DNA of 64,000 nucleotides from assembly GCF_013415905.1 (NCBI RefSeq), contig NZ_CP058909.1, positions 1,178,001 to 1,242,000 on the forward strand, read 5' to 3'. Each line of letters starts with the position of its first letter. Positions within the stretch are counted from its first letter, which is position 1. The position numbers and the translations under genes were made by a program. Origin of the DNA: Halosimplex pelagicum. GTDB taxonomy: Archaea > Halobacteriota > Halobacteria > Halobacteriales > Haloarculaceae. The notes under the pieces were generated by a model. It worked only from the letters and a program-made list of their open reading frames with translations. It made no database searches and was not told the origin of the DNA. This document shows, in pieces, positions 26,307 to 42,497 of the stretch.

Positions 26307-28334
26307 TCAGTTAAACCTCCGGTAGGCAACTACTGCACCCCCGACGCCAATTACACCCAGCACCAAGATTAGTATCGCAGATGGACCACCACCGCTGTTG
26401 TCAACCGGTTCGGTGATGTCGAGGGGGACCTGGTAGGTGTCGGAAAGCACCGTGTCTCCGTCGGGTTCTTCGTACTGGAAGTCCATTTCGACGGGTCGCG
26501 GGCGAGCGGCCGCACCGCTGGCGACACTCATGTCGAAGGCGATGGTCGCCGACTCACCAGGTTCGAGGACAGGAATGTACGACTCGTCGGAGCTGGCCGA
26601 GACCGGGGCGTCGACGTACGCTTTAGCGTTGATGTTCCGCAGCGTTTTATCGTAGCTGTTCGTGAGTCTGATCTCGACGGGTCCGCTCGCCCCGGCTGTC
26701 AGCGTCGCGTTGGTCCCAGTGACGGCGAAGACATCCTGCTGTTGGCCGACATCAAGCTGGTTGTTGAGCGTCTTACTGGAGACCTGTGCGCCATCCGCGT
26801 CCTCATAGTTGACCGTGAAGCCGAACTGGTAGGGCCCTGCATCGATACTTTCGGTCGCCGTCACGGGGAAGCGGACGGTCGCCGATTCACCGTTGCTAAG
26901 ATCGCCGACTGGATACGTGGTTCGCTGCGGTTCCAGCCCGGTCGCCGGCGCCTGGAACTCGATGACCGCGTCATCGACAACCCCCGTTCTGAGCTTCGTG
27001 ACCGTTGCGGTGACGTTCCCCTCTTCGCCCGCACGGAGCGTACTCGAAGCGTTTTCGAGGCGGAACAAGTCGCGCTCTTCGCCAATAACAACTTCTGAGG
27101 TGAGAGAGTCACTGCTGAACTGTGACCCCGTCCGGTCTTCGTAATCGACAGTAAAGCCGAACTGATACGGCCCCGAGTCAGTGTCATTCGGCACGGTGAC
27201 TGGGAAGCGGACCGTGGCGGACTCGCCGGATGGGAGGTCGTCAATGGGGAAGGATGTCCGCTGGAGTTGCAGTTCCTGGTCAGCGGCCTGGAGATTCACG
27301 ACGGGGTCGATAGCTGTCCGTGGGCCAGTGTTGGTGACTGTCGCGGTGACATTGCCGTCTTCCCCGACGTACAGCGACCCGGAGACACCGGCGATGCTAA
27401 AGCGTTCGCCCGATTGAATATCTCCACCGAGCGTGATCGGGTCGGCAGAGCCTGAGAGCCCATTCGGCGTTTTATACTCGATCGAAGCCTGGATCGAATA
27501 CTGGTCGACAGAGGGTGCGGAGGACGAGAGGATGCGAACGGAGGCGTTATACGATTCGTCGGGCGCTAATTCGGGGATATAGATGTTCGTTTGACTCTGC
27601 GAGGACCCACCACTGGCCTGGGATTGCGAGCCGCCGGAGAATTGGACGGCGGGATTTTGCGAGGTGAGTCCAACGGTAACTTCTTCGGCACGTTCGGTCC
27701 CCGTGTTGGTAATCGAGAAATTGAGGTAATCCGAACCACCGGAATGGATTTGGCTTGCGCCGTCGTCCGAGAGCGAGAATGCGGGCCGCTCGCCGACGAC
27801 GACTCTCGGCGTTTTCGTCTCGGCTTCCGTGTAGTCGACGTTCTCGATGTTCGAGTAGCCCGATTGTGTCACTTCGTAGTTGACGATGCCAGTGTAGGCG
27901 TATCTGATTCGGACGGGCAGTTTATACGAGCCTGGCTCGAGATCTTCGCCAGTTTCGACGGTAAACACTGCCTCGCTAATGCCGCCACTTTGGAGCGTCC
28001 CCAACGTGACGGTGCCTGATTTGATATTGATCGGTGCATCGATTTCGCTTTCATCGATAGAGACGCGGACGTTGCGAGCGGTTTCGACCCGCTGAACGAA
28101 CTGCTGGGGGCCCGAGCGAGACACCTCGCCAGCGTTCGAGAGCGAGATAGTCACGTCACGCTCCTCACTCGGTTCGAGCTGATTCCCTTGAATATTCGCG
28201 GAGATATCCGGGCTTCCAATTACCTGTTCAACTTGCCCTGCAACGGGGATGGCAGTGAGAGCAACGGAACTAACGAGCAAAAATACCATGAGAAGCTCTG
28301 CTACTGGTGGCACCTTCGACCTGAGTCGTCTCAT
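26307..28334 (-). CDS. Secreted COG1361-type protein of RND module 2
   Basis: A 675-residue exported protein, twin of the module 1 partner. Signal peptide about 10-32 (AELLMVFLLVSSVALTAIPV), the same series of beta-sandwich repeats, and a different C-terminal anchor (AILILVLGVIGVGGAVVAY). Compared with the twin, changes are scattered single bases and one two-residue length difference in the SQSQAQASGG stretch. The stop abuts the RND start, so the pair is one operon behind the operator at 28338. Function as an outer adaptor or binding protein is inferred from this pairing. Confidence 0.88.
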   Translation of the reverse strand: MRRLRSKVPPVAELLMVFLLVSSVALTAIPVAGQVEQVIGSPDISANIQGNQLEPSEERDVTISLSNAGEVSRSGPQQFVQRVETARNVRVSIDESEIDAPINIKSGTVTLGTLQSGGISEAVFTVETGEDLEPGSYKLPVRIRYAYTGIVNYEVTQSGYSNIENVDYTEAETKTPRVVVGERPAFSLSDDGASQIHSGGSDYLNFSITNTGTERAEEVTVGLTSQNPAVQFSGGSQSQASGGSSQSQTNIYIPELAPDESYNASVRILSSSAPSVDQYSIQASIEYKTPNGLSGSADPITLGGDIQSGERFSIAGVSGSLYVGEDGNVTATVTNTGPRTAIDPVVNLQAADQELQLQRTSFPIDDLPSGESATVRFPVTVPNDTDSGPYQFGFTVDYEDRTGSQFSSDSLTSEVVIGEERDLFRLENASSTLRAGEEGNVTATVTKLRTGVVDDAVIEFQAPATGLEPQRTTYPVGDLSNGESATVRFPVTATESIDAGPYQFGFTVNYEDADGAQVSSKTLNNQLDVGQQQDVFAVTGTNATLTAGASGPVEIRLTNSYDKTLRNINAKAYVDAPVSASSDESYIPVLEPGESATIAFDMSVASGAAARPRPVEMDFQYEEPDGDTVLSDTYQVPLDITEPVDNSGGGPSAILILVLGVIGVGGAVVAYRRFN

Positions 28335-28655: not shown

Positions 28656-29243
28656 ATGTCACGACCGATCACGCCACAGGCGTCGTCTCCGGTGCACGGG
28701 CCGCCGGGTGGGGACGATGGGTGCAACGAACTGGACCGCACGACGGTTCACGAACTACTGAGCAACGAGCGGCGGATGCGAGTACTGGAACTGCTGGGAG
28801 GGGAACAGACGTGGGACCTCTCGGACCTCGCCGAGGAAGTTGCGGCGGCCGAAACCGGCGAGCGGCCGCCCCCGAGGAACAAACGCCAGAGTGTTTACGT
28901 GACGCTCCACCAGACGCACCTGCCGAAGCTCGCCGACCACGGCGTCGTCGACTACGACTCCGAGCGCAAGACCGTCACGGTGGAGCCGCGGGGCCTCTCC
29001 ATCGTCGGCTCGGAACGCGAGAGGACGGACGCAGGGGAGACGGAGGGGTCGGACGGAATGGAGTCGCCGGATCCGGTTCGCCTGGAATGGAGTATCGCCG
29101 TCGCCGCGGTGGGGCTCGTGCTGGCCGTGGTCGACCCGTCGGCCTGGACGCCGACGCCCGCGGTGCTCGACGGTGTCTACGCGGAGCTGTCGCTGTTCGC
29201 GGTGTTGCTCGTACTGGTCTATCAGAAGGGACGACACGGCTGA
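28656..29243 (+). CDS. DUF7344 winged-helix membrane regulator 1
   Basis: A 195-residue protein from the ATG at 28656; a longer frame from 28578 is possible but Arg-rich and unlike the family. The core (ELLSNERRMRVLELLGGEQTWDLSDLAEEVAAAE...NKRQSVYVTLHQTHLPKLADHGVVDYDSERKTVTV) is the haloarchaeal DUF7344 winged helix, followed by two C-terminal membrane helices (WSIAVAAVGLVLAVV and ELSLFAVLLVLVYQ). Members are predicted transcription regulators held at the membrane. It converges with a second DUF7344 gene and stands right before the SipW-type locus, which it may control. Confidence 0.85.
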   Translation: MSRPITPQASSPVHGPPGGDDGCNELDRTTVHELLSNERRMRVLELLGGEQTWDLSDLAEEVAAAETGERPPPRNKRQSVYVTLHQTHLPKLADHGVVDYDSERKTVTVEPRGLSIVGSERERTDAGETEGSDGMESPDPVRLEWSIAVAAVGLVLAVVDPSAWTPTPAVLDGVYAELSLFAVLLVLVYQKGRHG

Positions 29244-29301
29244 CCACGCGAACGGTCCGGAAACCGCCGGAGGTGTGGCTGGGCGGCTCGACGGGTCACG
29301 G

Positions 29302-29835
29302 TCAGTCGGTGAGTGCCCACAGGACGAACCAGCGTCGGTTCCAGAGCTGATAGCTCGTCGAGACGGCGACGGCGAGCAGCATGACCGTGATCAGAAAGAC
29401 GGGGTCGAGCCGCACGAACACCGGGAACTCCAGTTCGGCGCTCAGCAGGACGACCAGCCCGATCGTCGCCAGCGCGCGGTAGAACGACGCCCAGGTGATC
29501 CCGTACGGCGAGACGACCTCCATGTAGATGTCGACTTCGCGAGCGGACTCGTCGAGCGTGACCGTCTTCCGGTCTTTGTCGTAGACGACGATGCCCTCAC
29601 GGTCCAGTTTCGGCAGGTGCGTCTGATGGAGGGAGTTGTACACGCTTTCGCGGAGGTCGGTCGGTGGCGGCGACTCGCCCGACTCCCCCTCCGCGATGGA
29701 GACCGACAGCTCGCGTAGCGAGACCGACCCGATGGTCCGCTGGAGATGCGTGAGTACCGCTCGCCGCCGCTCGTTCCTGAGAACGTCGTGGATCTGTTCC
29801 TCGGCTAACGACTGCGTGTTTCGTAACGTACCCAT
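29302..29835 (-). CDS. DUF7344 winged-helix membrane regulator 2
   Basis: A 177-residue relative of the preceding protein, started at the ATG at 29835 (MGTLRNTQSLAEEQIHDVL); an ATG/GTG 21 bases further up cannot be ruled out. It has the winged helix (NERRRAVLTHLQRTIGSVSLRELSVSIAEGE and VYNSLHQTHLPKLDREGIVVYDKDRKTVTLDE) and two C-terminal helices (ALATIGLVVLLSAEL and PVFLITVMLLAVAVSTSY). Its 5' end faces the SipW-type run, with about 460 bases of shared upstream DNA, so it is the better placed of the two to control that run. No target is known. Confidence 0.85.
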   Translation of the reverse strand: MGTLRNTQSLAEEQIHDVLRNERRRAVLTHLQRTIGSVSLRELSVSIAEGESGESPPPTDLRESVYNSLHQTHLPKLDREGIVVYDKDRKTVTLDESAREVDIYMEVVSPYGITWASFYRALATIGLVVLLSAELEFPVFVRLDPVFLITVMLLAVAVSTSYQLWNRRWFVLWALTD

Positions 29836-30315
29836 ACCCTTCCCGAGGGGGACCACTCCCTCCTCCTGCTTAATTATCGACCCGCTTTGCCGAATTCACG
29901 CCCTACAGCCCTCTGTAGCCCCGATATATCGGAGCGGCTTATCGAGTGGTTTACGACCGAACCCGTCGTTTCGGACGGCTCAACAGTCGGTTAAACCCCG
30001 TCAGTAACTCGCTTTACCGCGACCGTACCCCGCCCGAAACCGTTCGCAGACGTGTCGAACTCCCGGGAAACCGACTCCGTCCTGCCGTCCGCGGGGTCGA
30101 TCCGTCCGTCGGCGCCACGGTCGCGTCACCTGAACCCGTGGTTAAGCCGCCAAACGACACCATTGGGGAGACAATCGCCGATTGTTTCCGACCAACGGCA
30201 CGTTCGAACCCGTCGAACGAGACGATTGATAAAAAATCCGGTAATTACCTATGGGGTGTCCCGATGTGGGTCGTAGCAAGCCCGTCCCGTCCCGCGGAAC
30301 GGGTGGAGAAAACTC
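29836..30315. promoter_or_regulatory. Divergent upstream region of the SipW-type locus
   Basis: About 480 bases without a supported gene. An AT-rich TATA-like GATAAAAAATCC lies near 30226-30237, a CCCGT...ACGGG stem near 30283-30303, and a GGTGGAG ribosome site just before the ATG at 30316. Confidence 0.5.
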
Positions 30316-31203
30316 ATGTCAGACAAGGAATTCGGACTGTCCCGCCGGCAGATGCTCGCCGGGCTCGGCACCATCGGTGTCGCGTCCGCGGGCGCCGGTC
30401 TCGGGACGACGGCGTTGTTCAGCGACGAGGAATCGTTCGAGGGCAACTCGGTCACCGCAGGGACGCTCGACATGAGCGTCACCGCGTCGGTCGAGGCCGC
30501 AAACGAGTACTGGGCCGAGCAGGTCGACCTGGCCGAGCTGGAGGCGACCGCCGACGGCGATGCGGTCACCGGCATCCAGGTCTCGGACGTCAAGCCCGGC
30601 GACTGGGGTATCATCTGCTTCGAGTTCGAGGTCGGCGACAACCCCGGCTACATCCGCACGCGCGCGGAGGGACGCGAAACCGGCGAGAACGGCTACACGG
30701 AACCCGAACCGACCGACGGCGAGGCCGAGAACGACCCCGATGACGACGACGGCGCGGGCGAGCTGCAGGACTTCATGCTCGCCGAGGTCTACCAGAACTC
30801 TGTCGACGCCAACAGTGACGACCCCCGAGACTACGTGGAGAACCTCGATCCCGTCACTCCCGAGGGATCGACGCTACAGGAGACCTACGACACGTTCTCC
30901 GGTGGCGTGATCATGCGCGACGGCGACGGCGAGCCGCTCGAGGTCGGGTCGGACCCCGAGGAGGGCACTCCCGACGGCCCCGGCTCGGCGGAGTGGTGTC
31001 TCCTGCTGTACGTCCCCGAGGACGTGGGCAACATCATCCAGAGCGACACGCTGTCGTTCGACCTCGTGTTCGAGGCCGAGCAGGTCCGCAACAACGACGT
31101 GCCGTTCGACGGCGACAGCGCGGTCAGCGAGACGGCGACGCCCGAGCCCACGGCGACGCCGGACCCGACTTCGACCCCCGAAGGGACCGCCACGCCCGAG
31201 TGA
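30316..31203 (+). CDS. SipW-cognate (TasA-like) secreted protein 1
   Basis: A 295-residue exported protein. The first 45 residues have the SipW-cognate signal (LSRRQMLAGLGTIGVASAGAG, then LGTTALFSDEESFEGNSVTAGTLDM): a twin-arginine motif, Gly/Ala core, and the FSDEES...N...AGTLDL sequence that in TasA and camelysin relatives follows SipW cleavage. The mature part is acidic and beta-rich with VKPGDWGIICFEFEVGDNPGYI, the conserved PGD segment of the family, and ends in a Thr-Pro-rich tail. TasA-like proteins polymerise into surface fibres by donor-strand exchange; archaeal relatives build bundling pili. Fibre formation here is inferred. The matching peptidase gene is at 36329. Confidence 0.88.
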   Translation: MSDKEFGLSRRQMLAGLGTIGVASAGAGLGTTALFSDEESFEGNSVTAGTLDMSVTASVEAANEYWAEQVDLAELEATADGDAVTGIQVSDVKPGDWGIICFEFEVGDNPGYIRTRAEGRETGENGYTEPEPTDGEAENDPDDDDGAGELQDFMLAEVYQNSVDANSDDPRDYVENLDPVTPEGSTLQETYDTFSGGVIMRDGDGEPLEVGSDPEEGTPDGPGSAEWCLLLYVPEDVGNIIQSDTLSFDLVFEAEQVRNNDVPFDGDSAVSETATPEPTATPDPTSTPEGTATPE

Positions 31204-31378
31204 CCCTCGGGTAACCGTTCCCCCGACCCCACATACCCCTGCGACTCCGGTCGCGCCCGCGGACAGCGCGACCGCTCCGGCGGCCACAGCCGCCGGGACC
31301 CGCGTCGGCGCTCGTCACCGCGACGACGGCGGTTCGACTCCGCCGGCGGGCTTCGCCCGACACTCGGGTGTAGTAACC
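31204..31378. other. Leader region of SipW-cognate protein 2
   Basis: GC-rich spacer of 175 bases holding the T-arm-like hairpin at 31327-31345 and a CGGGC-TTC-GCCCG stem directly after it. Confidence 0.6.
31327..31345 (+). repeat. T-arm-like hairpin, copy 1
   Basis: C-GGCGG-TTCGACT-CCGCC-G: 6-bp stem and a 7-base TTCGACT loop, the TTCRANY form of a tRNA T-loop. Begins 52 bases before the ATG at 31379. Confidence 0.75.
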
Positions 31379-32212
31379 ATGACCGGAGACAACGACTCGA
31401 CCGACGGCGTCCGCTTCACGCGGCGCTCGCTGCTCGCCGGACTCGGCACCATCGGTGTCGCCGGCGCCGGCGCGGGCCTCGGGACGACGGCGCTGTTCGG
31501 CGACGGGGAATCGTTCGCGGACAACCAGCTGAGCGCGGGCGCGCTGAACCTGCGCGTCACGGTGGACAACATCGCCCACAGTACCCCCACCGTCCGGGAC
31601 AACACCGAGATCACGCCGAAGGACACGGCCGACGGCGAGGCGGTCACGATCGCGGTGTCCGACCTGAAACCGGGCGACTGGCTCCTCCTGGAGTGGAACC
31701 CGGAGGTGATCGCCAGCCCGGGATACGTGCGGGTCACTTCCGTCGACGAGGACTACTCGAACACCGAGGGCCGAACCCCCGAGTCCGAGACGGACACCGA
31801 CTCGCCGGGCGACCTCGGCGACGTGCTCCTCTCGACCATATGGGCGTCGTACGAGGACCTCAGCGGCGGGATCAGCCGGGGGGACCTCACCGGGCTCGAT
31901 ACGACGACTGACAACGAGGACACCGGCCTCGCCGACTGGGAGCTGCCGGATCTGGACGGCGTGACCGCCAGCGGCGCTCACTACACGACGATGAACGAGG
32001 CCCACGAGGTCTACCGGTCTGGCGTGGTGCTCCGCGACGGAAACGGCGAGCCGCTGACGGTCGGGAGCAACTCCGAGGCCGCCTGGTTCTACCAGCTGCT
32101 CGAACTGCCGATCCGCGTCGGCAACGACGTGCAGGGCGACGAGGTGTCGTTCACCTTGCGGTTCGACGCAGAACAGACCCGAAACAACGAGACGCCGTTC
32201 GACGGGGCGTGA
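31379..32212 (+). CDS. SipW-cognate (TasA-like) secreted protein 2
   Basis: A 277-residue exported protein with the same signal layout (FTRRSLLAGLGTIGVAGAGAG, LGTTALFGDGESFADNQLSAGALNL). The mature part keeps the conserved VSDLKPGDWLLLEWNPEVIASPGYVRV core and the RVGNDVQGDEVSFTLRFDAEQTRNNETPF end block shared with the other family members here. It lacks the Thr-Pro tail of protein 1. About 175 bases and the T-arm-like hairpin separate it from the preceding gene. Likely a second fibre subunit or a cap; this is inference from family and position. Confidence 0.87.
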   Translation: MTGDNDSTDGVRFTRRSLLAGLGTIGVAGAGAGLGTTALFGDGESFADNQLSAGALNLRVTVDNIAHSTPTVRDNTEITPKDTADGEAVTIAVSDLKPGDWLLLEWNPEVIASPGYVRVTSVDEDYSNTEGRTPESETDTDSPGDLGDVLLSTIWASYEDLSGGISRGDLTGLDTTTDNEDTGLADWELPDLDGVTASGAHYTTMNEAHEVYRSGVVLRDGNGEPLTVGSNSEAAWFYQLLELPIRVGNDVQGDEVSFTLRFDAEQTRNNETPFDGA

Positions 32213-32258
32213 CAGCGGGATGACCGACGGTACTCACGCGAGCGCCCGCGGATCGCGG

Positions 32259-32277
32259 CGGCGGTTCGACTCCGCCG
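32259..32277 (+). repeat. T-arm-like hairpin, copy 2
   Basis: Same 19-base sequence C-GGCGG-TTCGACT-CCGCC-G, 28 bases before the ATG at 32306. Confidence 0.75.
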
Positions 32278-32305
32278 GTGGGCCTGCCCCTGACGGGGTG
32301 GTACG

Positions 32306-34357
32306 ATGACCGACGAACCGATGGAACTCTCACGGCGGAAACTGCTGGGCGGGCTCGGCGCGATCGGACTCGCGAGCGCCGGCGCCGGACTGGGTACGTC
32401 CGCGCTGTTCAGCGACGAGGAATCGTTCGAGAGCAATACGTTCGCGGCGGGCGAGCTCGACCTCAAGGTCGACTGGGAGGAACACTACTCCTACCCGCAA
32501 CGCTACGGGTTCGACGACCCCGCGGCGGACCTGGACGTGACCCGGATCGAACCGGAGGACGACGGCTACGTCGGCCTCCCGGACCCCGAGAGCCCCGCGG
32601 TCTGGGTCGCCGAAGACGATCTCCCGGCGTACATGGACAACACGTCGATCGAGTCGTTCCCCGACCCGAACGACGACGGGGTCCAGGAGATGCAAGACGG
32701 GGAATTCGCCTACTCCCCCTGCCGGGACGGCGCCGACCTCGACGAGCACTTCGACCCGGTCGGCGGGCTGCGGACGACCAACGCGGACACGCTGGTCGAC
32801 GGCGAGGTCGAACCGCTGGTCAGCCTCGACGACGTCAAACCCGGAGACTTCGGGGAGCTCACGCTGAGCTTCCATCTCTGTGACAACCCCGGCTACGTCT
32901 GGTTGCGGGCCCGCGGCGTCTCCGAGTCCGAGAACGGTCTCACCGGGCCGGAGGCGACCGTCGACGACAGCCCCGCCGACCCGGAGCTGGCCGAGCAGAT
33001 CCGGACCGTCTGGTGGTACGACACCGACGGCAACAACGTCGTCGACGAATCGGTCGGCGCGGTCGACGTGATGATCGCGGTGGACACGTCGGCCTCGCTC
33101 AGCGATGACGACGTGGGCGCGCTCGAAACCGCGGCCAACGACCTCGCCGCCGACCTCGACGCGAATGCCGACGCCCGCGTGGGCGGCGTCTCCTTCGGGA
33201 ACGACGTGAACGACTTCACCGCGCTCGCCGACGGACCGGTCTCCTTCTCCGGCCTCGACGCCGACGGGAGCACCGCGATGCCCGCCGCGCTCGACGTCGC
33301 CGCGGCCGAACTGGACGCGAACGCGCGCTCGGGCGCCGAGACGTTCGTCGTGCTGTTCACCGACGGCGGCCCGAACTACGAGAACCGGGAGTACTCGACG
33401 GGAGGGTACACCGTCGGGGGCGGCTACACTGGCGGGAACCCCGGAAACTCGACCGTCGACGACAGCGAGCTCGACGAGACCGCGGCCGTCGCGGACGCGA
33501 TCCGCGGGGCTCACCGCATCCTCGCGGTCGGGATCGACGACGACAAGCGACCGACCGGCCGCGAGGCCGAGTCCGGCGTCCCGCTACTCTCGACGTACCT
33601 CCGCGACGACATCGCGGGGAGCCCGGGTGACTACTTCAGCAGCGACGACCCTGGCACCGTGTCGGGCGTCCTGAGCGCGATCACCGACGCGATCGCCATG
33701 GACGAGGAGGTGTTCCACCGTGGGACCCTCGCCGACGACCTGGCGGCGCTGTCCGACGGCGCGGGGATCCCGCTGGACGCGGGGCTGCAAACCTCCTTCG
33801 ACGAGCTGTCGGACCCCGACGACAGCCCAGACCGCGAGTGCTTCCAGCCCGGCGTCAACCACTTCGTCGGGTTCGGCTGGTGGCTCCCGGCCGACGCCGG
33901 CAACGAGGTCCAGAGCGACTCCGTGAGCTTCGACTTCGGCTTCTACACCGAACAGTGCCGCGGCAACGACGGCGGCGGCACGAGCACCGTCGACGACGGC
34001 GGTGACGACGAGGGGGACGGAGACGAGGCGACCGCGACCGTGACGGCGCAGGGGTTCCCCAGTGACGACGACGGCGCGACCATCGAGACGGTCGACGTGG
34101 AGTTCCCTTTCGCCCTCTCAGGAGCGTCGGTCGACGACACGTCGTGGAGCGTCGGCCCCTCGGGCTCGGAGGTCGTCGCGATCGACGGGGACACCGTCGA
34201 GCTCGACTACCCCGACAACTCGAACACGTACACGTCGGACACCTTCCTGGAGCTGACGGTGAGCGGTATCGCGGCGCCGTCGGGGACCTACGACGTGGAC
34301 TTCGTCTTCGAGGACGACGACAGCGCGGTCGACTCGACGGACCAGGTGACGATATAG
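32306..34357 (+). CDS. SipW-cognate secreted protein with von Willebrand A domain
   Basis: A 683-residue exported protein. SipW-cognate signal about 8-50 (LSRRKLLGGLGAIGLASAGAG, SALFSDEESFESNTFAAGELDL). A TasA-like first part has LDDVKPGDFGELTLSFHLCDNPGYVW. It is split by a von Willebrand A domain, about residues 253-445, with the metal-binding MIDAS residues D-T-S-A-S (MIAVDTSASL, about 258-262), a Thr in GSTAMPAAL and the Asp of LFTDGGPN (about 352). The TasA-like part then resumes with GVNHFVGFGWWLPADAGNEVQSDSVSFDFGFYTEQCRGND. A final acidic linker leads to a beta domain. It may be the adhesive tip or a large minor subunit of a fibre made by its neighbours. Confidence 0.87.
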   Translation: MTDEPMELSRRKLLGGLGAIGLASAGAGLGTSALFSDEESFESNTFAAGELDLKVDWEEHYSYPQRYGFDDPAADLDVTRIEPEDDGYVGLPDPESPAVWVAEDDLPAYMDNTSIESFPDPNDDGVQEMQDGEFAYSPCRDGADLDEHFDPVGGLRTTNADTLVDGEVEPLVSLDDVKPGDFGELTLSFHLCDNPGYVWLRARGVSESENGLTGPEATVDDSPADPELAEQIRTVWWYDTDGNNVVDESVGAVDVMIAVDTSASLSDDDVGALETAANDLAADLDANADARVGGVSFGNDVNDFTALADGPVSFSGLDADGSTAMPAALDVAAAELDANARSGAETFVVLFTDGGPNYENREYSTGGYTVGGGYTGGNPGNSTVDDSELDETAAVADAIRGAHRILAVGIDDDKRPTGREAESGVPLLSTYLRDDIAGSPGDYFSSDDPGTVSGVLSAITDAIAMDEEVFHRGTLADDLAALSDGAGIPLDAGLQTSFDELSDPDDSPDRECFQPGVNHFVGFGWWLPADAGNEVQSDSVSFDFGFYTEQCRGNDGGGTSTVDDGGDDEGDGDEATATVTAQGFPSDDDGATIETVDVEFPFALSGASVDDTSWSVGPSGSEVVAIDGDTVELDYPDNSNTYTSDTFLELTVSGIAAPSGTYDVDFVFEDDDSAVDSTDQVTI

Positions 34358-34390
34358 CGGCGCGACGCGGCGACTCGCCCACTCGGAGCA

Positions 34391-34409
34391 CGGCGGTTCG
34401 ACTCCGCCG
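34391..34409 (+). repeat. T-arm-like hairpin, copy 3
   Basis: Third identical 19-base copy, 34 bases before the ATG at 34444. A weaker relative (GGGGCGGTTCGACCC) lies at 34518-34532. Confidence 0.75.
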
Positions 34410-34443
34410 GTGGGTCTGCACCGGGAGACCGGTACGCACAATC

Positions 34444-34563
34444 ATGATCCGGGATCACTCGCACCGTTCGGAAGACGGAAAGCCGTCGGCCGCGTTCGGC
34501 CGTCGAGACCGCCGTGCGGGGCGGTTCGACCCTCTACGCCGCGCGAGCGGCGGGCGGAGGTGA
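34444..34563 (+). CDS. Possible 39-residue leader peptide
   Basis: ATG-initiated frame of 39 basic residues beginning MIRDHSHRSEDGKPSAAF and ending TGA at 34561-34563, four bases into the next gene. It stands at the position where the other T-arm-hairpin leaders have a signal-peptide gene, but has no signal. It may be a coupling or regulatory peptide, or a degraded gene start. Whether it is translated is unknown. Confidence 0.35.
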   Translation: MIRDHSHRSEDGKPSAAFGRRDRRAGRFDPLRRASGGRR

Positions 34564-34568
34564 CGACC

Positions 34569-35318
34569 GTGGCTTGCGTCCAGTCCGGAACGGGATACGT
34601 GCTCGTCGTCCCGCGAGTCGTCTGTCACCAGGGGCCGGGCCCGACGGAGCTCCCGCTGGCCGCGCTGGTCGCCGGGGAGACGGCGCTCGGACGACTCGCG
34701 GATGACGTGCTGGGGAGCGACCTGCTGCCGCGGGCGACGGCCGACCCCGACGGCTCGACTCCCGCGGAGCCGTCGGTGTCGCTCGACCCCGACACCGAGA
34801 CGGTCTCGGACGCGCCGGGAGCTCTGGATGCATCGAAGGCGCTGGGGACCACGGACCCCTCGGAGACCGGCGAGGAGCCGGAACTGGCCGACCAGCGTCC
34901 CGGGATGGCGGCCGACGCCGGCGAGCGCGACTCCTTCGTCCTCGGCGTCCACGCCGCGTCGGTCGGCGACGGGGACCCGACCTCGCCCGCGTCGCTCGTC
35001 GGCGTCCGCGTCCTGGCGCCCGGGGAGTACCGCGGGGTACCGGTGCCGGTCTGGGAGGCGAACCCCTTCCCTATCTCCGCGCCGAGCGCGGTCGGTGAGC
35101 GTCCCCGAACGGAGTGGACCGACACCGGGCTCACGCCCGAACCCGGGGGCCGTCGGCGCATCGAGGTCACCGCGACACTGTGGGCTGACCTGGGCGGCGA
35201 CGCCGAACGGTCCCGACCGCTGTACGACGGGCTCGGGTGGCCCGTGACCGACTCCCGAACCGTGACGTTCGGCCACGCCGGCGACGCTGGCTCGGACTGT
35301 TTCGAGGTCGCGAGGTGA
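34569..35318 (+). CDS. Unknown protein of the SipW-type locus
   Basis: A 249-residue acidic protein that I do not recognise. I start it at the GTG at 34569, eight bases after a GGAGG; a GTG at 34560 overlaps that site. It opens with VACVQSGTGYVLVVPRVVCHQGPGPTELPLAALVAGETAL, has a long low-complexity Asp/Pro/Glu middle and a beta-rich end (RRIEVTATLWADLGG). No signal peptide, helix or RR motif is visible, so it may stay in the cytoplasm as a chaperone or assembly factor, or be exported another way. The same strand and short gaps tie it to the SipW-cognate genes on both sides. Confidence 0.65.
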   Translation: MACVQSGTGYVLVVPRVVCHQGPGPTELPLAALVAGETALGRLADDVLGSDLLPRATADPDGSTPAEPSVSLDPDTETVSDAPGALDASKALGTTDPSETGEEPELADQRPGMAADAGERDSFVLGVHAASVGDGDPTSPASLVGVRVLAPGEYRGVPVPVWEANPFPISAPSAVGERPRTEWTDTGLTPEPGGRRRIEVTATLWADLGGDAERSRPLYDGLGWPVTDSRTVTFGHAGDAGSDCFEVAR

Positions 35319-35382
35319 CCGCCGTGTCTCCGCAGGCCACGACTCCCGGACCGGGACGCGCCGGGCGACGGGGTGGTCGACC

Positions 35383-36336
35383 GTGACCGAAGACGACGGA
35401 TCGCTGTCGCGGCGGGCCGTCCTCGCGGGGCTCACCTCGGCCGGCGCGGTCGCGGCGGCCGGCGCCGGCGTCGGGACGAGGGCGGTGTTCCGCGACGACG
35501 AGCGGGTCGAGGGGTCGGCCGGTAGCGGCGTCCTCGACCTCCGGGCGTCGTGGGCGAGCGGCGGAGTCGACGCCTCGTTCGGGACGGTTGGCGCGGTCGG
35601 CGACGGCGGGAGCGACGCGGTCGCCCTGTCGCTGGCGCCCGGAAGCAATCCGGCGTACGTCTGGGCCCGGACGCGGTGTCGGCGGTGTACCGAGATCGAG
35701 CGCAAACTCCGGGTCACGCTCTCGCTGGTCGCCGACGGGACCGAGACGCGGCTGTTCCGCGGACGACTCGGCGACGCCCGGTCGAACCTGGGCGACGGCG
35801 TTCGGCTCGACGGGTCGATCGCGCCCGGCGACGACTGGCGGCTGACCGTCGAGTGGGAGCTCCGCGAGCCGCTGACGGCCGACGCGACGGTCTCCGTCGA
35901 CTTCGAGTTCTACGCAGTCCAGACGCGCAACGTCGCGGACCCTGAGGCCTTCGGCCCGGGATGGACCTGCTCGGCCGGGTGCGGCGACCGCCCGCCGGAG
36001 ACGGCCGACATCAGCTGGGTCGGGTTCTGCGCGGCCTCGGACGAGCGGCTCCGCCCGGCGGATCTGCGCTTCGCGGTCGACGGGTCGGTCCTCGAACTGA
36101 CCGACGCGCCGCCCGCTCTCGGGACGGTCCTGCTCAAGTACGGGACGAGCCTGGACGTCTTCGAGCGAGCCTCGCCGGGACGGTTCGTCGCCGGGGCCGG
36201 CGAAACGTACGACCAGCGCGGCCCCGGCTTCCCCGGGTCGGGCCGCTCGAACCCGACGCCGTGTCCCGGCGGCTGCGGGCTGAAGTACGACGTCGACGGC
36301 GACGAGTTCGAATTAAACGGGTGTGACAATGACTGA
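35383..36336 (+). CDS. SipW-cognate (TasA-like) secreted protein 4
   Basis: A 317-residue exported protein from a GTG start at 35383. Signal: LSRRAVLAGLTSAGAVAAAGAG, then VGTRAVFRDDERVEGSAGSGVLDL, a drifted form of the SipW-cognate motif. The middle keeps VALSLAPGSNPAYVWARTRC and a VDFEFYAVQTRNV block typical of the family. The C-terminal third is new: a Cys-rich domain (CSAGCGDRPPETADISWVGFC, ending CPGGCGLKYDVDGDEF) seen in none of the other three. It overlaps the peptidase start by eight bases, strong evidence that substrate and peptidase are made together. Confidence 0.83.
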   Translation: MTEDDGSLSRRAVLAGLTSAGAVAAAGAGVGTRAVFRDDERVEGSAGSGVLDLRASWASGGVDASFGTVGAVGDGGSDAVALSLAPGSNPAYVWARTRCRRCTEIERKLRVTLSLVADGTETRLFRGRLGDARSNLGDGVRLDGSIAPGDDWRLTVEWELREPLTADATVSVDFEFYAVQTRNVADPEAFGPGWTCSAGCGDRPPETADISWVGFCAASDERLRPADLRFAVDGSVLELTDAPPALGTVLLKYGTSLDVFERASPGRFVAGAGETYDQRGPGFPGSGRSNPTPCPGGCGLKYDVDGDEFELNGCDND

Positions 36337-37708
36337 GAATTTCAGAACCAGAGTGCAGGCGCGGGTTGCATCGTACGACAGGTGGAGTCTCCTCAGGGCG
36401 GCGCTGGTGGCGTTGCTCGTCGCGGCGGTCGTCCCGTTCGTGGTCTTCGCGGTCCCGCAGGTCGTGGGCGCGGAGGCCAGCTACGTCGTCCTGAGCGGGA
36501 GCATGGAGCCGGCGATCAGCCCCGGGGACGTGGTGATCGTCGACGACGTGTCGCCGGCGACCGTCTCGGTGGGGGACGTGATCACGTTCGGCGGCGGCCC
36601 GACCGAGCCGCCGACGACCCACAGGGTGATCGGCGTCGAGCGGGAGGCCGGTGAGCTCGTCTTCGAGACGAAAGGCGACAACAACCAGGCGCCGGACCCC
36701 GAGCGGGTGTCGACCGGCGAGATCGCCGGGCGAGTGATGGAGCCGTCGTTGCCGGGGCTCGGGCCGACGCTGTTCGCGGTCCCCTACCTCGGGTTCGTCG
36801 TCCGCTTCGCCAACACCACCCACGGCTTCGCCACTCTGGTGGTCGCGCCGCTGTCGCTGCTCGCTCTCTCGGAGGCGTGGGGCGCGCTCGTCCGCCGGCG
36901 CGACGCCGCGGACGACTCCGGGAGCGACGACCCCGAGGACGACGGCGCGGACGCGACGGACGCCGACGCGCCGACGGACGGGTCCACCGGCGGGGCGTCA
37001 GATCCGGTCGTGACCCTCTCGCCGCGGGCCGGGGGACTGCTCGCCGTCGTGCTGGCGGCGCTGGCGGTCGTCGCCGGACGCTACGCCCTCCAGGCGCGCC
37101 GCCCGCTCGCGGCCGTGGTCGCCGTCGGGTCGGGCGTCGGCGCGCTCCTGCTGGTGGCGTTCCTCGCCGGCGCCAGGCCCGAGGAGGCGGCCGACGGGGA
37201 GTCCGGGGCCGGCGGCGGTGCGGACCCGGACACGGTACCCGACGGCGGTTCGGACGCGGCGTCGGACGGCGGCGAGCGGGTTGTCGCCGGGACCGTCGTC
37301 TCGGACCGTTCGCGCGCCAGACGGGTCGAAGTCCGCGATATCGCCGCGTTTCGCGAACTCGCGGCGGACTCGGGCGCGTGGGTCGTCCACGACGAGGTCG
37401 CCGGCGAGTACGCGCTGCTCGAAGACGGCGTGACGTTCGTCGCGACTGAGCCGGCGGACCCGGCGGAGTCGGGCGAGCGAGACGACTCCCCATCGGACGC
37501 CCGAGCGGGCGATCCGCTCGCCGGGTCGGGAGACGCGGCCGCGGAGGACGCGTCTACGGACGAAACAGCCGTGGACGAGACGGTCGCGAACAGCGCGGCT
37601 ACGGACGAGACGGCCGCGGGGCGGACCGACGGCGGGGTCGACGCGGATAGGCCCACCCCGCGGTCGCGGGACCGCGACGGTCGGGAGTGCGACGATGGCC
37701 CGGAGTGA
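36329..37708 (+). CDS. SipW-type signal peptidase I with extended C-terminus
   Basis: A 459-residue membrane peptidase (S26B group) started at the ATG at 36329; a GTG six bases earlier is possible. After a first helix (AALVALLVAAVVPFVVFAVP) come the catalytic Ser (SGSMEPAI) and, where bacterial enzymes have Lys, a His (TTHRVIGV), the archaeal/SipW Ser-His form. KGDNNQAPD supplies the downstream conserved Asp. A further helix follows (ATLVVAPLSLLALSEAW). The second half, unusual for the family, adds two more helices (GLLAVVLAALAVVAGRYAL; AAVVAVGSGVGALLLVAFLAG), a small folded patch (RVEVRDIAAFRELAADSGAWVVHDEVAGEY) and a disordered tail. It would cut the signals of the SipW-cognate proteins encoded beside it. 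Confidence 0.9.
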   Translation: MTENFRTRVQARVASYDRWSLLRAALVALLVAAVVPFVVFAVPQVVGAEASYVVLSGSMEPAISPGDVVIVDDVSPATVSVGDVITFGGGPTEPPTTHRVIGVEREAGELVFETKGDNNQAPDPERVSTGEIAGRVMEPSLPGLGPTLFAVPYLGFVVRFANTTHGFATLVVAPLSLLALSEAWGALVRRRDAADDSGSDDPEDDGADATDADAPTDGSTGGASDPVVTLSPRAGGLLAVVLAALAVVAGRYALQARRPLAAVVAVGSGVGALLLVAFLAGARPEEAADGESGAGGGADPDTVPDGGSDAASDGGERVVAGTVVSDRSRARRVEVRDIAAFRELAADSGAWVVHDEVAGEYALLEDGVTFVATEPADPAESGERDDSPSDARAGDPLAGSGDAAAEDASTDETAVDETVANSAATDETAAGRTDGGVDADRPTPRSRDRDGRECDDGPE

Positions 37709-38147
37709 CTGCCCCCGCTCCGGGGCGAAACTCGCGGCGCTCGCGCTGTCGACGGCGCTGCTGTTCGCCGCGGCGACCGGCGGACTCACTCACGGCGTCC
37801 TGATCGACCGGGAGTCGGTGAGCGCGACGCTGGCCGGTAACGTCGGCGCCGGGAACGCTCCGGTCTCCGGGCCCCTGGGGACCGGAAACTCCCCCGCAAG
37901 CGTCGAGAACGGGGCGAACGGCCACGGAGACGGACCCGGCGGTTCGGGGGACGGACCGAACGGTGCCGGCAACGCTCCGGTCGGCCACGGGAACGGCCCC
38001 GCCGGCGCCGGCAACGCTCCGGGGAGCGCGGGACCGTCGCTCGTCGCGGGCGCGTCCCCGGCCGAGGCGCCGGTGGTGCGCCCGAACCCCACCGAGCGAC
38101 GCCGCGCTCGCGGCGGGTCGAGCGGCGCCAGGGGTGGCTCGAAGTGA
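37695..38147 (+). CDS. Small Gly/Asn-rich exported protein
   Basis: A 150-residue protein that overlaps the end of the peptidase gene by 14 bases. One hydrophobic segment (KLAALALSTALLFAAATGGLTHG, about 12-34) is followed by VLIDRESVSATLAGN, which resembles the SipW-cognate cleavage area but lacks twin arginines. The rest is GN/GA/GP repeats (GNAPVSGPLG, GAGNAP) and a basic end. It may be a minor exported component or a tether. Function unknown. Confidence 0.7.
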   Translation: MARSDCPRSGAKLAALALSTALLFAAATGGLTHGVLIDRESVSATLAGNVGAGNAPVSGPLGTGNSPASVENGANGHGDGPGGSGDGPNGAGNAPVGHGNGPAGAGNAPGSAGPSLVAGASPAEAPVVRPNPTERRRARGGSSGARGGSK

Positions 38148-38332
38148 CGGAGCGACGGCCGCGACGGTCGATCGCGACGGTCGTGCCGGGCGTCCGGACG
38201 GACACGCCGAAACGGAACGTCATCGTCCTTCTGGTTTACCTGTTCCTGCTGGCCATCGCGCTCTCGGGACTGAAGGTCGCGACTGACCTCCTGTTGACGG
38301 GGACCTTCGCCGCGACGCGAACGGTAATATAA
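38144..38332 (+). CDS. Small single-helix membrane protein
   Basis: A 62-residue protein from a GTG start that overlaps the previous stop (GTGA). A basic N-terminal part is followed by one helix (VIVLLVYLFLLAIALSGLKVA, about 26-46). It closes the SipW-type run and may help peptidase or fibre assembly; there is no family clue. Confidence 0.6.
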   Translation: MTERRPRRSIATVVPGVRTDTPKRNVIVLLVYLFLLAIALSGLKVATDLLLTGTFAATRTVI

Positions 38333-38522
38333 GTGGAGAACTTGTATATGTGCCAACTAGTGTTCGACCGACTGACTCGGCCGCGAACTGGCGTCCACGA
38401 CGCCGGGTCCGGCCACCGCCAGCGGGTCCACGGGCTCCCGGAGGGAGCTCCCCGGTCTGACCACGAGTCGACACTGCCGGGAACGGACCGCCTTCACGGC
38501 TCGAACGCGCCGAAAGGTGTCG
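38333..38522. other. Intergenic region before the Bat-like regulator
   Basis: A TATA-like GTAATATAAG near 38324-38333 overlaps the end of the previous gene. No other feature seen. Confidence 0.4.
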
Positions 38523-40208
38523 ATGACCGGTGAGAGCCCCGACGAAACGGGTGCCGACGGGACCGATACCGACGGGGCCGACGCCGACGACGGACTCTCG
38601 TCGCGGGCGACGGTGCTAGTCGTCGACGACGACGAAATGTGGGGCCGGACCGCGGCTCGACTCCTCGAACGTCAGCGCGAACGGCTCTCCGTCACGACGG
38701 CGACGACGCTCTCGGAGGCGGAGGCGGCCTTCGAACGCCTCGATCCCGACTGCGTCGTCTGCGACTACCGGCTCGACGACGCGACCGGATTCGACCTCCT
38801 CTCGGCCGTGCGTCGGGTCGACTCGGACCGGCCGTTCGTCCTCGTGACCGGCGAGGGCGACGAGGGGGTCGCCAGCGAGGCCATCAGACGCGGCGCGACG
38901 GATTACGTCCGCAAGGGTCGTCACAGCGACGATCCGGGATTGCTGGCCGAGCGAGTGACCTCCGCGGTCGGGGCCTATCGGACACGGCGGGCGCTGACCC
39001 GCGAGCGCCGGAGCAAGGAGGCGATGCTCGACATCGTGACCACGACCGCGTCCCGGGAGACGCTCTGTCAGGCCTTTTGCGACCTGCTCGTCGACGAACA
39101 CGGCTACACCGGCGCGTGGATCGGGATCGAGGAGGGGGTCGACGGCCTCGACCCGTGGGCGGCGGTCGACTGCGGCGGCTACCTCGACCGCGTCGGCTCC
39201 GCCCAGCGGGCCGGTGACGGGGAGACCCCGGCCCTGGTCGCGCGGAACCGGGGCGAGGTCTACGTCGTCGACCGGATCGGGTCGGGTGACCCCGACGCGA
39301 CCGCTCCGTCGGAGGGCGACGGTGCCAGCGGGACCGACAACCGCGACTGGCAGTCGGCGGCGCTGGCGGCAGGCTTCCGGAGCGTCGCGGCCGTTCCGCT
39401 GGGCGAGGACGGCGGTCGCGTTGGGGTCCTGACGGTTTTCGCGGCCGATCCGGGGACGTTCGACGACCGGGAGTGCCGGTTGCTGTCGGACTACGCGGCC
39501 ACCGTCGCCTACGCGCTGCGGACGGCGAACTGGAAGCGCTCGCTGGTGTCCTCGGTCCCGGTGTCCGTCGGGTTCCGGTTCTCCGGCGACGAAGTGCCGC
39601 TTGTCGCGTTCAGCCGCACGCTCCCCGACGGGGCGTCGGTGTCGGTGGTCTCGACGGCGGTCAAGAGCGACCGATCACTGCTGTATCTCCTCCGGGTGAC
39701 GGGCGTTCCCGGGTCGGCGCTCCCGGACGCGGCGTCGATGCCGGGCGTCGAGTCGGTGCGCGTCGACGACGACGTGGCGCCTCTCCGGGTCGAACTCGTC
39801 GCCGACGGACCGACCCCGGAGCGCCTGCTGGCGAATCGCGGGGCGAAAGTCACCGGAACCACCGTCGAGGACGACGCAGTGACGGTCTCGGTGTCGTACC
39901 CCAGGGAGGGGGACATCCAGGCGCTCTCGCGGGCGCTCCGCGACGAGTTCCCCGAGGTGTCCGTCGGTCGCATCAGGGCCGACGAATCCAGGGCGGAGCC
40001 GGTCGTCGACGAGGGGCTCGCAGCGGACCTCACCGACAAGCAGCGGCAGGCGCTGGAGATCGCGTACCATCAGGGGTACTTCGAACGGCCCCGCGAACAC
40101 AACGCGACCGAGGTCGCCGACACGCTCGGGATCAATCGGGTCACGTTCACTCAGCACCTCCGGACCGCCGAACGGAAGGTCTTCGCGCGACTGTTCGACC
40201 CCGACTGA
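38523..40208 (+). CDS. Bat-like response regulator with HTH_10 output
   Basis: A 561-residue regulator from the ATG at 38523 (a GTG two codons earlier is possible). Order: acidic N-terminal tail; receiver domain (VLVVDDDEMW, phospho-acceptor in VVCDYRLDD at about D81, conserved Thr in VLVTGEG, Lys in YVRKGRH); GAF domain (about 165-335); the bacterio-opsin-activator N-terminal type linker (SVGFRFSGDEVPLVAFSR); and HTH_10 (LTDKQRQALEIAYHQGYF...ATEVADTLGINRVTFTQHLRTAERKV). Known HTH_10 proteins respond to light, oxygen or redox state. It lies between the SipW-type run and a histidine kinase on the same strand, a likely partner. Confidence 0.92.
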   Translation: MTGESPDETGADGTDTDGADADDGLSSRATVLVVDDDEMWGRTAARLLERQRERLSVTTATTLSEAEAAFERLDPDCVVCDYRLDDATGFDLLSAVRRVDSDRPFVLVTGEGDEGVASEAIRRGATDYVRKGRHSDDPGLLAERVTSAVGAYRTRRALTRERRSKEAMLDIVTTTASRETLCQAFCDLLVDEHGYTGAWIGIEEGVDGLDPWAAVDCGGYLDRVGSAQRAGDGETPALVARNRGEVYVVDRIGSGDPDATAPSEGDGASGTDNRDWQSAALAAGFRSVAAVPLGEDGGRVGVLTVFAADPGTFDDRECRLLSDYAATVAYALRTANWKRSLVSSVPVSVGFRFSGDEVPLVAFSRTLPDGASVSVVSTAVKSDRSLLYLLRVTGVPGSALPDAASMPGVESVRVDDDVAPLRVELVADGPTPERLLANRGAKVTGTTVEDDAVTVSVSYPREGDIQALSRALRDEFPEVSVGRIRADESRAEPVVDEGLAADLTDKQRQALEIAYHQGYFERPREHNATEVADTLGINRVTFTQHLRTAERKVFARLFDPD

Positions 40209-40321
40209 CGACCCCGCCCGCGCCGCCGTTCGTTCGGGTCCGTGTTCGACCGTACGCGTCCGTTTCCTGCTGCTCTCCGCCCGTTGCGGGTCGCCCCGTC
40301 GACCGGTGAAGTGGTAACCAG

Positions 40322-40329
40322 TTTTATAC
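40322..40329 (+). promoter_or_regulatory. TATA box of the histidine kinase gene
   Basis: TTTTATAC about 30 bases before the ATG at 40359, as expected for a leaderless haloarchaeal message. Confidence 0.6.
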
Positions 40330-40358
40330 TTCACTACGCCCGAAGAATACACGGTCAG

Positions 40359-42311
40359 ATGGTTGAGTTCGTGGACGCCGTCGCAGGGCTAGCCGTCGCG
40401 AGCGCCGTCGTTTCGGCGGCGCTGGTCAGGGTCGCGCTGGCTCACCGGTCGGAGGTCGGCGCCCGCGGGCTCGCGCTCTCGATGGGCGGGATGACGGTGT
40501 GGCTCGCGGCCTACGGGACCGCGCTCGCCTTCGAGACGGTCGTCCCGCCGGTCGTCGCCTACAACTTCGTCATCCTCGCGGCCGGCGTCGGCACGGTCGG
40601 CTGGTTCCTCATGGCGCTGGAGTACACCCGCCAGCGGTTCCCGTCGCGCCGGGGGCTGGTCGCGCTGTTCGCAGTTCCGGCCGTGACGCAGGTCTTCGCG
40701 TGGACGAATCGGATGCACGAGCTGTTCTGGGCGCCGGGGACGACGCCCCTGCTGGGCGGCGGGCTCGACAGGGTCTACGGCCCGCTGTTCTACCCGCACG
40801 CAGCGTACAGCTACGTGCTGGTCGCCGCGGCGACCGCGCTGTTCCTCCGCCACGCGTTGCGCCGACGGGGAGTCTTCCGGAAGCAGGCGGGCGCGATGGC
40901 GCTCGCCGGCGTCGGGCCGCTGCTCGCCGACATCGGCCACGTCACCCTGTCGGTCCTCGGCCCGCGCGTGGACCTGACGCCGTTGAGCTTCGTCTTCGGC
41001 GGACTGGTCGCGACGTGGGCGCTGTTCCGCTATCGGTTTCTGGAACTGGTGCCGGTCGCGCGTCGGACAGCCGTCGACCGAATGCGCGACCCGTTCGTCG
41101 CCCTCGACGACGAGGCGCGGATCATCGACGCCAACGGTCGGGCAGACGCGCTGCTCGGAACCGACCCGGTCCTCGGGGACCCGGTCTCCGAGTACTGGCC
41201 GGCCGTCGAGCGGGCGCTCCCCGAGGATCCGGAAGCGGCCCGGACAGTCGAACTCGTCGCTCGCGAGGGTGAGAGCGCCGATACCCGAAACTACAGCCTG
41301 AACGTCTCGCCGCTGCCGCTGGGCCCCGCCCGGACCGGCTGGGTCGTCGTCGCTCGCGACGTGACCGAACACAGGCGTCGCGAGTGCGAGCTCGCGGCGA
41401 AGAACCGGGAACTCGAGCGGACGACCGCACAGCTCCGCCGCAAGAACGACCAGCTCGAACGGGTCGCGGACATTGCTGCCCACGATCTCCGGACGCCACT
41501 GGCGACCGCGGACGCGCTGGTCGAGCTGCTCCGGACGGATATCGAGGACGCCGACCCGTCGGTTCGGCAGTCGCTGTCGGACCTGGAGACGGTCCACGCG
41601 CGGCTCCGCGAGTTCGCCGCCCGGATCCCCGATCTCGCCCGCGAGAGCCTGGCCGTCGAGACCGAGACGCCGTTCGATCTGGAGGCGACAGCCAGGGACG
41701 CCTGGACCGTCGTCGACACCGGGCGGCTGTCGCTCGTCATCGAGGGGACCACGACGCTCCGCGGCCAGCCCTCGCGTGTCCAGCAGGCGCTGGAGAACCT
41801 CTTCGAGAACGCGGTCGTCCACGGCGTCGAACCGTTCGGCGCGGCGGACCAGCCGGCGACCCGGTCCGACCCCATCGGCTCCTCCGACTCCGACGCTACG
41901 AGAGACTCCTCGGAATCGGGAGCCGACGGACCGGCGCGGTCGGAGCCGCTGCTCCGCGGCGGATCCGGCGACCCCGACTTTGACCGCGATCCCGTCCCCG
42001 AGTCGGTAGCCGGTTCCGACGGCGATTCCGTGCCAGGGAGCGGCCCGGAGACCGATCGGGGGCCCGACGAGGCGGCGACGACGGTCCGCGTCGGGACTCT
42101 CGGGGACGAGGCGGGGTTCTACGTGGAGGACGACGGTCCGGGTATCCCGCCGGAGCGCCGGGAGCGCGCGCTCGCGTACGGCACGGAGGACGGCGAGGGA
42201 GGGTACGGACTGGCGATCGTCCGGACGACGGTCGAAGCACATGGTTGGCGGCTTTCAGTCACTGAATGTGACGCGGGTGGTGCGCGTTTTGAGGTACGGA
42301 CCGACGAGTGA
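40359..42311 (+). CDS. 7TM sensor histidine kinase with PAS domain
   Basis: A 650-residue kinase; start set at the ATG at 40359 from the TATA box spacing and the start of the first helix. Residues about 5-225 form the seven-helix N-terminal sensor (His_kinase_N_7TM type, with YNFVILAAGVGTVGWFLMALEYT). A PAS domain follows (about 235-345, DPFVALDDEARIIDANGRADALLG), then a coiled coil and the HisKA box with the phospho-His (IAAHDLRTPLATADAL, about H374), and the ATPase domain with N box (LENLFENAVVHG), G1 (VEDDGPGIPP) and GYGLAIV. An acidic, low-complexity run of about 75 residues is set between N and G1 boxes. It probably phosphorylates the preceding regulator. Confidence 0.92.
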   Translation: MVEFVDAVAGLAVASAVVSAALVRVALAHRSEVGARGLALSMGGMTVWLAAYGTALAFETVVPPVVAYNFVILAAGVGTVGWFLMALEYTRQRFPSRRGLVALFAVPAVTQVFAWTNRMHELFWAPGTTPLLGGGLDRVYGPLFYPHAAYSYVLVAAATALFLRHALRRRGVFRKQAGAMALAGVGPLLADIGHVTLSVLGPRVDLTPLSFVFGGLVATWALFRYRFLELVPVARRTAVDRMRDPFVALDDEARIIDANGRADALLGTDPVLGDPVSEYWPAVERALPEDPEAARTVELVAREGESADTRNYSLNVSPLPLGPARTGWVVVARDVTEHRRRECELAAKNRELERTTAQLRRKNDQLERVADIAAHDLRTPLATADALVELLRTDIEDADPSVRQSLSDLETVHARLREFAARIPDLARESLAVETETPFDLEATARDAWTVVDTGRLSLVIEGTTTLRGQPSRVQQALENLFENAVVHGVEPFGAADQPATRSDPIGSSDSDATRDSSESGADGPARSEPLLRGGSGDPDFDRDPVPESVAGSDGDSVPGSGPETDRGPDEAATTVRVGTLGDEAGFYVEDDGPGIPPERRERALAYGTEDGEGGYGLAIVRTTVEAHGWRLSVTECDAGGARFEVRTDE

Positions 42312-42497
42312 GTGCCGACGACCGTGGTCAGTCCTTCCGCGGCTCAGCCGGTCGGATGTGGCGGGCGACCCGTCGGCAGTTCGGCCCGGCCGTGAGCAGG
42401 AGGGGTGCGTTGTGGCCCATCTACTCCCACATGTAGACGCGGTTGAGCATGAGGTTGGTATGGATACCGATGATCGACAAACCGACAACTTCAGCGT

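Follow-up and report, generated by a model that had tools for sequence, protein, structure and literature searches.

A haloarchaeal SipW-type locus as a candidate TasA-type fibre operon with Tat-type subunit signals

The window analysed here is a 64,000-nucleotide stretch (positions 1,178,001 to 1,242,000 of contig NZ_CP058909.1) of the 5.2-Mb single-contig genome of the archaeon Halosimplex pelagicum. It contains a locus in which four proteins with SipW-cognate signals, which we call S1 to S4, are encoded in one run with a SipW-type signal peptidase and a small gene behind it. We propose to read the locus as the operon of a haloarchaeal TasA-type fibre, where subunits exported by twin-arginine translocation (Tat) and a donor-strand starter exported by the general secretory (Sec) pathway would all be matured by that peptidase, and we put the chances of this reading slightly above even. 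The system is more widespread, and its export logic more unusual, than a preliminary description of the same DNA had assumed.

Subunits, peptidase and their neighbours

The SipW-cognate model TIGR04088 recognised S1 (27.6 bits, cut-off 19) and S3 above its cut-off. S2 and S4 gave no match in that scan and were assigned by alignment only, over the same RR...GT.A.F.D.E junction; in the S4 family, 11 of 23 members match the model at E<=1. S2 is 43% identical to S1 and shares its junction. A search with S1 returned 940 proteins at E<=1e-3 (S1 itself included), the closest named homologues being from Halosimplex (84 and 87% identity), and some of these relatives carry LamG-like domains (PF13385). 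In S3, a von Willebrand A (vWA) domain (residues 254-358; Pfam VWA, E 1e-7) is inserted within the TasA-like region, since the last conserved TasA-like segment lies after it in the alignment, and the MIDAS-like residues DTSAS...T...TDG can be seen by eye. S4 has a Cys-rich part with 8 Cys. The four SipW-type proteins of the preliminary description, one with a vWA domain and another Cys-rich, are thus borne out.

Predicted structures of S1 and S4 gave TasA as the best fold match, the feature on which the preliminary description had made its case depend; an archaeal bundling pilus, a thread and cannulae ranked lower for the modelled subunits, and region about 208-313 of S4 was barely covered by the fold search. 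From these models, the subunits very probably have the TasA fold. The mature N-terminus was disordered or of low confidence in both models, a state compatible with donor-strand exchange; being disordered, it is predicted to be free to act as a donor strand. The TasA equivalog NF046066 (cut-off 450 bits) scored S4 at 10.1 bits and did not match S1 to S3, and a PDB sequence search with the subunit profile gave two matches only, both chance-like. Peptidase_M73 (PF12389, cut-off 22.5 bits) stayed below its cut-off for S1 to S3 (19.3, 17.4 and 20.8 bits) and did not match S4, and it is carried by many relatives among the 120 matches listed. These M73 matches are what would suggest that the proteins are camelysin-like secreted metallopeptidases activated by the signal peptidase. 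We find that scarcely credible, however, as the matches of S1 and S3 span only the signal and junction region, and as one study (PMC10151520), which names TasA homologues camelysins, treats TasA as a filament protein.

The peptidase matched NCBIfam sigpep_I_arch (TIGR02228) at 98.3 bits (cut-off 51.85). Ser60 and His100 were each present in 60 of 60 sequences when the window's peptidase was aligned with those of the named loci introduced below, and by analogy they are the expected catalytic pair. Its hydrophobic segments begin at residues 20, 39, 172, 229 and 260; two of them are additional, in agreement with the extra helices described earlier, and the protein also has an acidic C-terminal extension. 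A dedicated Ser-His peptidase therefore lies within the subunit operon, on the same (plus) strand as all four subunits, as had been claimed. Among the 60 peptidases, 44 have a Cys-rich twin-arginine (RR) protein directly upstream.

Two DUF7344 genes precede the subunits as described, although the second runs divergently. The first shows weak similarity to ArsR-type helix-turn-helix proteins (HTH_metalloreg, E 0.0047) and, by eye, C-terminal membrane segments. A Bat-like regulator and a 7TM kinase do follow, both beyond position 38332. The two small proteins behind the peptidase, which had been described as membrane proteins, each have a hydrophobic segment; the SipW-type (Sec-like) signal of the first had been overlooked.

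Table 1 Features of the locus, in window coordinates
Feature	Position	Strand	Basis
DUF7344 regulator 1	28656..29243	+	Pfam DUF7344, E 1.4e-30; kept in both Halosimplex relatives and in L085
DUF7344 regulator 2, divergent to subunit run	29302..29856	-	Pfam DUF7344, E 4.2e-28
S1, main TasA-type subunit, RR (Tat-type) SipW signal	30316..31203	+	TIGR04088
S2, second TasA-type subunit	31379..32212	+	Alignment with S1
S3, large TasA-type subunit, vWA insert and C-terminal part	32306..34357	+	TIGR04088, Pfam VWA
Signal-less protein, possibly accessory	about 34569..35318	+	Codon-position pattern of a real gene
S4, last subunit, TasA-type domain and second Cys-rich beta domain	35383..36336	+	Alignment
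SipW-type signal peptidase (Ser60/His100)	36323..37708	+	TIGR02228
Predicted starter (TapA-like) peptide, 150 aa	37695..38147	+	Signal, junction, disordered tail
62-aa protein, one hydrophobic segment	38144..38332	+	In both Halosimplex relatives; weak match in L032
Bat-like regulator (REC-GAF-BAT-HTH_10), Halosimplex block	38517..40208	+	Pfam, synteny
7TM-PAS histidine kinase, last gene of Halosimplex block	40242..42311	+	Pfam HisKA_7TM, E 1.3e-44; synteny

Conservation of the gene set

One scan of named genomes with a subunit profile, in which two peptide patterns represented the junction of the subunits, gave 68 loci, so that loci lacking this junction were missed; 86 relatives were found, of which the best 80 were kept. 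All 68 loci come from records titled as haloarchaea or halophilic archaea, one of them an uncultured archaeon whose strain name is of haloarchaeal type. A SipW-type peptidase lay on the same strand in 58 of the 68 (59 peptidases), and several of the others were short contigs. Of 66 loci that could be tested, counting the window and excluding three edge loci, 57 have a divergent DUF7344 gene no more than 1.5 kb from the first subunit, and 67 of 69 loci encode large subunits of more than 430 aa. This neighbourhood survey thus revealed a conserved gene set, as the preliminary description required, in a widespread but patchy haloarchaeal locus and not in one archaeon alone. An even sample of 97 Halobacteria genomes, in which long and compact locus types were counted together, held the peptidase in 44 and subunits in 43, the same genomes except one. 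The locus is thus accessory and patchy, yet arrives as a set when present.

Not every part belongs to that set. Of the 165 large subunits found, 120 were listed and 68 of these scanned, with Pfam VWA detected in 35; a strict MIDAS pattern occurred at 10 of the 69 loci. These counts rule out a vWA subunit in every locus. Named loci hold several different subunits and no single major one. This variety, together with the vWA and LamG-like domains, would suit monomeric surface proteins or adhesins sitting on or in the S-layer without forming a polymer, i.e., an adhesion module with inserted domains. We consider that distinctly improbable, because the best fold matches are fibre-forming proteins, the junction strand is conserved, and monomers would have no evident need of the starter-like gene described below.

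The signal-less protein is nearly confined to Halosimplex. Among 7996 candidates, a search for it recovered at least 6 proteins, namely itself, three relatives from Halosimplex and two from short contigs, and it is missing from L085, an otherwise matching locus. We also considered it as the counterpart of a TasA-like protein that occupies this position in other haloarchaea, and discarded this (profile probability 0.6%); the TasA-like family at that position matches the subunits instead (profile probability 99.5%). Its 18 members (L015:14256-15071 and 17 others) have an RR signal without a SipW junction and a jelly roll apparently lacking its own donor strand, and might form an end cap.

In Halosimplex, a block matching window positions 28480 to about 42432-42459 is colinear in two other genomes (G225 and G223), with one extra S1-like gene in G225. 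Outside the block, in the 40 kb compared per genome, the sole match longer than 150 bp was one of 243 bp at window 20216-20455, in one genome. Because the block is kept in order in two relatives while its flanks are almost wholly unmatched, the locus is not a chance arrangement. Third-position changes were the most frequent kind in the eleven genes compared, which supports their being real genes, most weakly so in the case of the 62-aa gene; this comparison left out the kinase and used a single relative for three of the genes. Least conserved were the signal-less protein, the peptidase and the small proteins. A vWA subunit was found in 3 of 8 genomes of the genus sample, this one included. The Bat-like regulator and the kinase were rejected as core parts, since they have no regular place outside the Halosimplex block: a Bat-like gene occurs in L023, kinase-like genes occur in L056 and L067, and in L085 a Bat-like gene lies upstream and a kinase-like gene is encoded on the opposite strand. 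G+C content is 61 to 74% in the block, compared with 51 to 59% at 14-28 kb and 44-52 kb; being far G+C-richer than its flanks and having different surroundings in the two relatives, the block looks like a moving cassette. Just outside it (window 26307-28334, minus strand) a surface-type protein of 675 aa is encoded, which carries CARDB/NEW3 repeats and, at its C-terminus, a hydrophobic segment.

Export signals and the gene behind the peptidase

In the named loci, all 194 subunits with a recognised junction carry RR before a weakly hydrophobic core (best 15-residue Kyte-Doolittle mean 1.68, sd 0.12, maximum 1.97), the arrangement of a Tat substrate. To avoid bias from searching by signal, we also used profiles that start after the junction and, by a permissive criterion, accepted an RR anywhere up to residue 170; RR was present in 248 of 256 matches. 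The eight others comprise six that look truncated or broken by eye and two genes of Halobellus that begin with a hydrophobic stretch and no RR. Outside Halobacteria, in eight genomes from the same phylum, 24 of 25 SipW-type proteins lacked RR, and their cores were more hydrophobic (mean 2.63, sd 0.23, minimum 2.11); these 25 were picked by a loose junction pattern and hydropathy above 1.2, and three of them (L077 6281, L082 4129 and L083 3161) may not be SipW substrates. The signals make it highly likely that the subunits are routed through Tat, and because they are of Tat type the subunits are likely exported folded. The simplest reading of these sequences would be a switch of the subunits from Sec to Tat in Halobacteria.

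The gene directly behind the peptidase is of another kind. Its product has a strongly hydrophobic, non-RR, Sec-like signal, a SipW-like junction, a strand-like segment and a disordered tail. Where 400 bases or more follow the peptidase, as they do for 57 peptidases including that of the window, such a small gene lies directly 3' of 48, and none of the 48 products has a further transmembrane segment. The criteria for candidates were hydropathy and a tail poor in Arg, with the junction left out of account; one scan shows a starter-like gene in L009 that fails this rule. By eye, a SipW-like junction sits right behind the hydrophobic core in the 48 proteins. Hydrophobic residues alternate past the junction, and the tail consists of 74 to 97% disorder-type residues. 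Core hydropathy averaged 2.67 in the 41 proteins measured, a set that leaves out L025 and L049, whose post-peptidase gene is S4-like. In one locus (L042:14913-16739) the post-peptidase protein has a tail of PKD domains (Pfam PKD_4) in place of a disordered one.

Pfam and NCBIfam scans of the small proteins gave little. The TapA model TIGR04087 (cut-off 80 bits) did not match the window's copy, and its best score among ten small proteins scanned was 12.5 bits, from a compact-locus copy that also passes TIGR04088 (24.5 bits). In Bacillus subtilis cells, priming needs no more of mature TapA than its first 14 residues, according to PMC10151520. By analogy, the small gene looks like a natural version of truncated TapA, and its product likely supplies the free donor strand that starts the fibre.

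A plainer account is an ordinary TasA-type fibre in which RR has no special meaning and the small protein is an uncleaved, membrane-anchored glycoprotein or a spacer. Haloarchaea are known to send most secreted proteins through Tat; N-glycosylation sequons are frequent in the tails of many small proteins, though the window's copy has none, and that copy is not recognised by TIGR04088. We nevertheless regard this account as unlikely, if the most serious of the alternatives, because an uncleaved anchor or spacer sits poorly with the junction kept in those 48 proteins, with the compact-locus copy that passes TIGR04088 and weakly touches the TapA model, and with the SipW-type protein that, by eye, directly adjoins the peptidase in five of eight loci outside Halobacteria (L076 to L080).

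Three observations weigh against the split-route fibre that we favour. Two compact-locus subunits (L104:5338-5871 and L105:4046-4585) fit poorly, having RR before a strongly hydrophobic core (2.56). Among the 41 small proteins measured, 11 were flagged with RR near the core. In vitro, an excess of TapA 44-62 peptide had only a weak effect, according to the same study (PMC10151520). The L104 and L105 signals might be intermediates between Sec and Tat types.

Assembly scheme and comparison with known systems

From the gene order, the conservation, the signals and the Ser/His pair that we observed, and from the predicted folds, we infer how the fibre could be built. Subunit precursors would fold inside the cell and leave through Tat, their donor strand blocked by the attached signal peptide; the peptidase would cut outside the cell and free that strand. 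The small Sec-exported protein, with a donor strand and a disordered tail but no acceptor fold, would prime the first subunit in the manner of TapA, and subunits would then join one another by donor-strand exchange, as TasA does. The vWA domain of S3 may serve as an adhesive branch or end, the two-domain Cys-rich S4 may be the terminal subunit that ends the fibre, and the DUF7344 proteins may control expression. The full arrangement, in which folded Tat subunits with a signal-blocked strand and a separate unfolded Sec starter are unlocked by one peptidase, we offer tentatively, as somewhat short of an even chance.

If the arrangement is right, the split routes would prevent the starter from meeting the subunits before both are outside the cell, donor-strand fibres can be built from Tat-exported, pre-folded subunits, and the minimal TapA segment known from a Bacillus truncation exists as a natural gene. 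To our knowledge, such split Sec/Tat assembly is known from neither bacteria nor other archaea, and we found no paper on it among the open-literature matches listed for Tat and donor-strand fibres. A search for haloarchaeal TasA/SipW found no description of the system in the titles and abstract starts of the open-literature matches listed, subscription papers being mostly outside the search. The family is already known by annotation (NCBI labels the subunits 'SipW-dependent-type signal peptide-containing protein' or 'TasA family protein'). Judged by its sequences, the locus appears to be a conserved variant of the TasA-type fibre system, undescribed within the literature searched, and likely a surface- or matrix-fibre system of a large archaeal group. 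For Halorubrum, the genus of many of the named loci, genetic systems appear in the literature.

Within haloarchaea, compact SipW loci likewise have RR-type TasA-like proteins and a Ser-His peptidase, but the peptidase is about 180-205 aa long and lacks the extension of the window's. A Sec-like small protein was found in 8 of 9 compact loci scanned, three of them by eye (L103, L104 and L109), in a count that omits L107 (peptidase unrecognised) and L106 (wrong peptidase); the small genes of L104 and L109 were flagged RR by script. The exception is the second SipW locus of this genome (L005:5218-8340, i.e., G000:C1:4420217-4423340), whose products are two small TasA-like proteins of RR type, a peptidase of 188 aa and a 402-aa RR protein in which three similar repeats can be made out by eye, and which differs from the window in having no vWA domain, S4 or starter.

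Loci of other classes (L076-L083) share TasA-like proteins with the window, but their subunit signals are of Sec type. Two of them have two different signal peptidases each near SipW-type proteins, by eye (L078:4634-5122 and 5580-6539; L079:252-1124 and 1557-2012), and L081 (G114) combines TasA-like proteins (237 and 468 aa) with a peptidase of 169 aa and an adjoining 410-aa protein that has a hydrophobic signal. For archaeal bundling pili (AbpA of Pyrobaculum calidifontis, PDB 7ueg) we know of no vWA domain or Tat signal. Archaeal pili have been described as TasA-like and Sulfolobus threads as Sec-exported in two reports (PMC9674648; PMC9715654).

The closest comparison is with TasA-SipW-TapA of Bacillus subtilis. 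Both systems have a dedicated SipW-type peptidase in the operon, SipW-type subunit junctions and a small accessory protein whose mature N-terminus resembles a strand, and the S1 and S4 models are closest to TasA. In contrast to Bacillus, the haloarchaeal locus encodes several different subunits, one with a vWA domain and one with a second Cys-rich domain; its subunit signals are of Tat type, not Sec type; its peptidase has extra hydrophobic segments and a long tail; and its accessory protein, unlike TapA, carries a disordered tail only, in place of an Ig domain.

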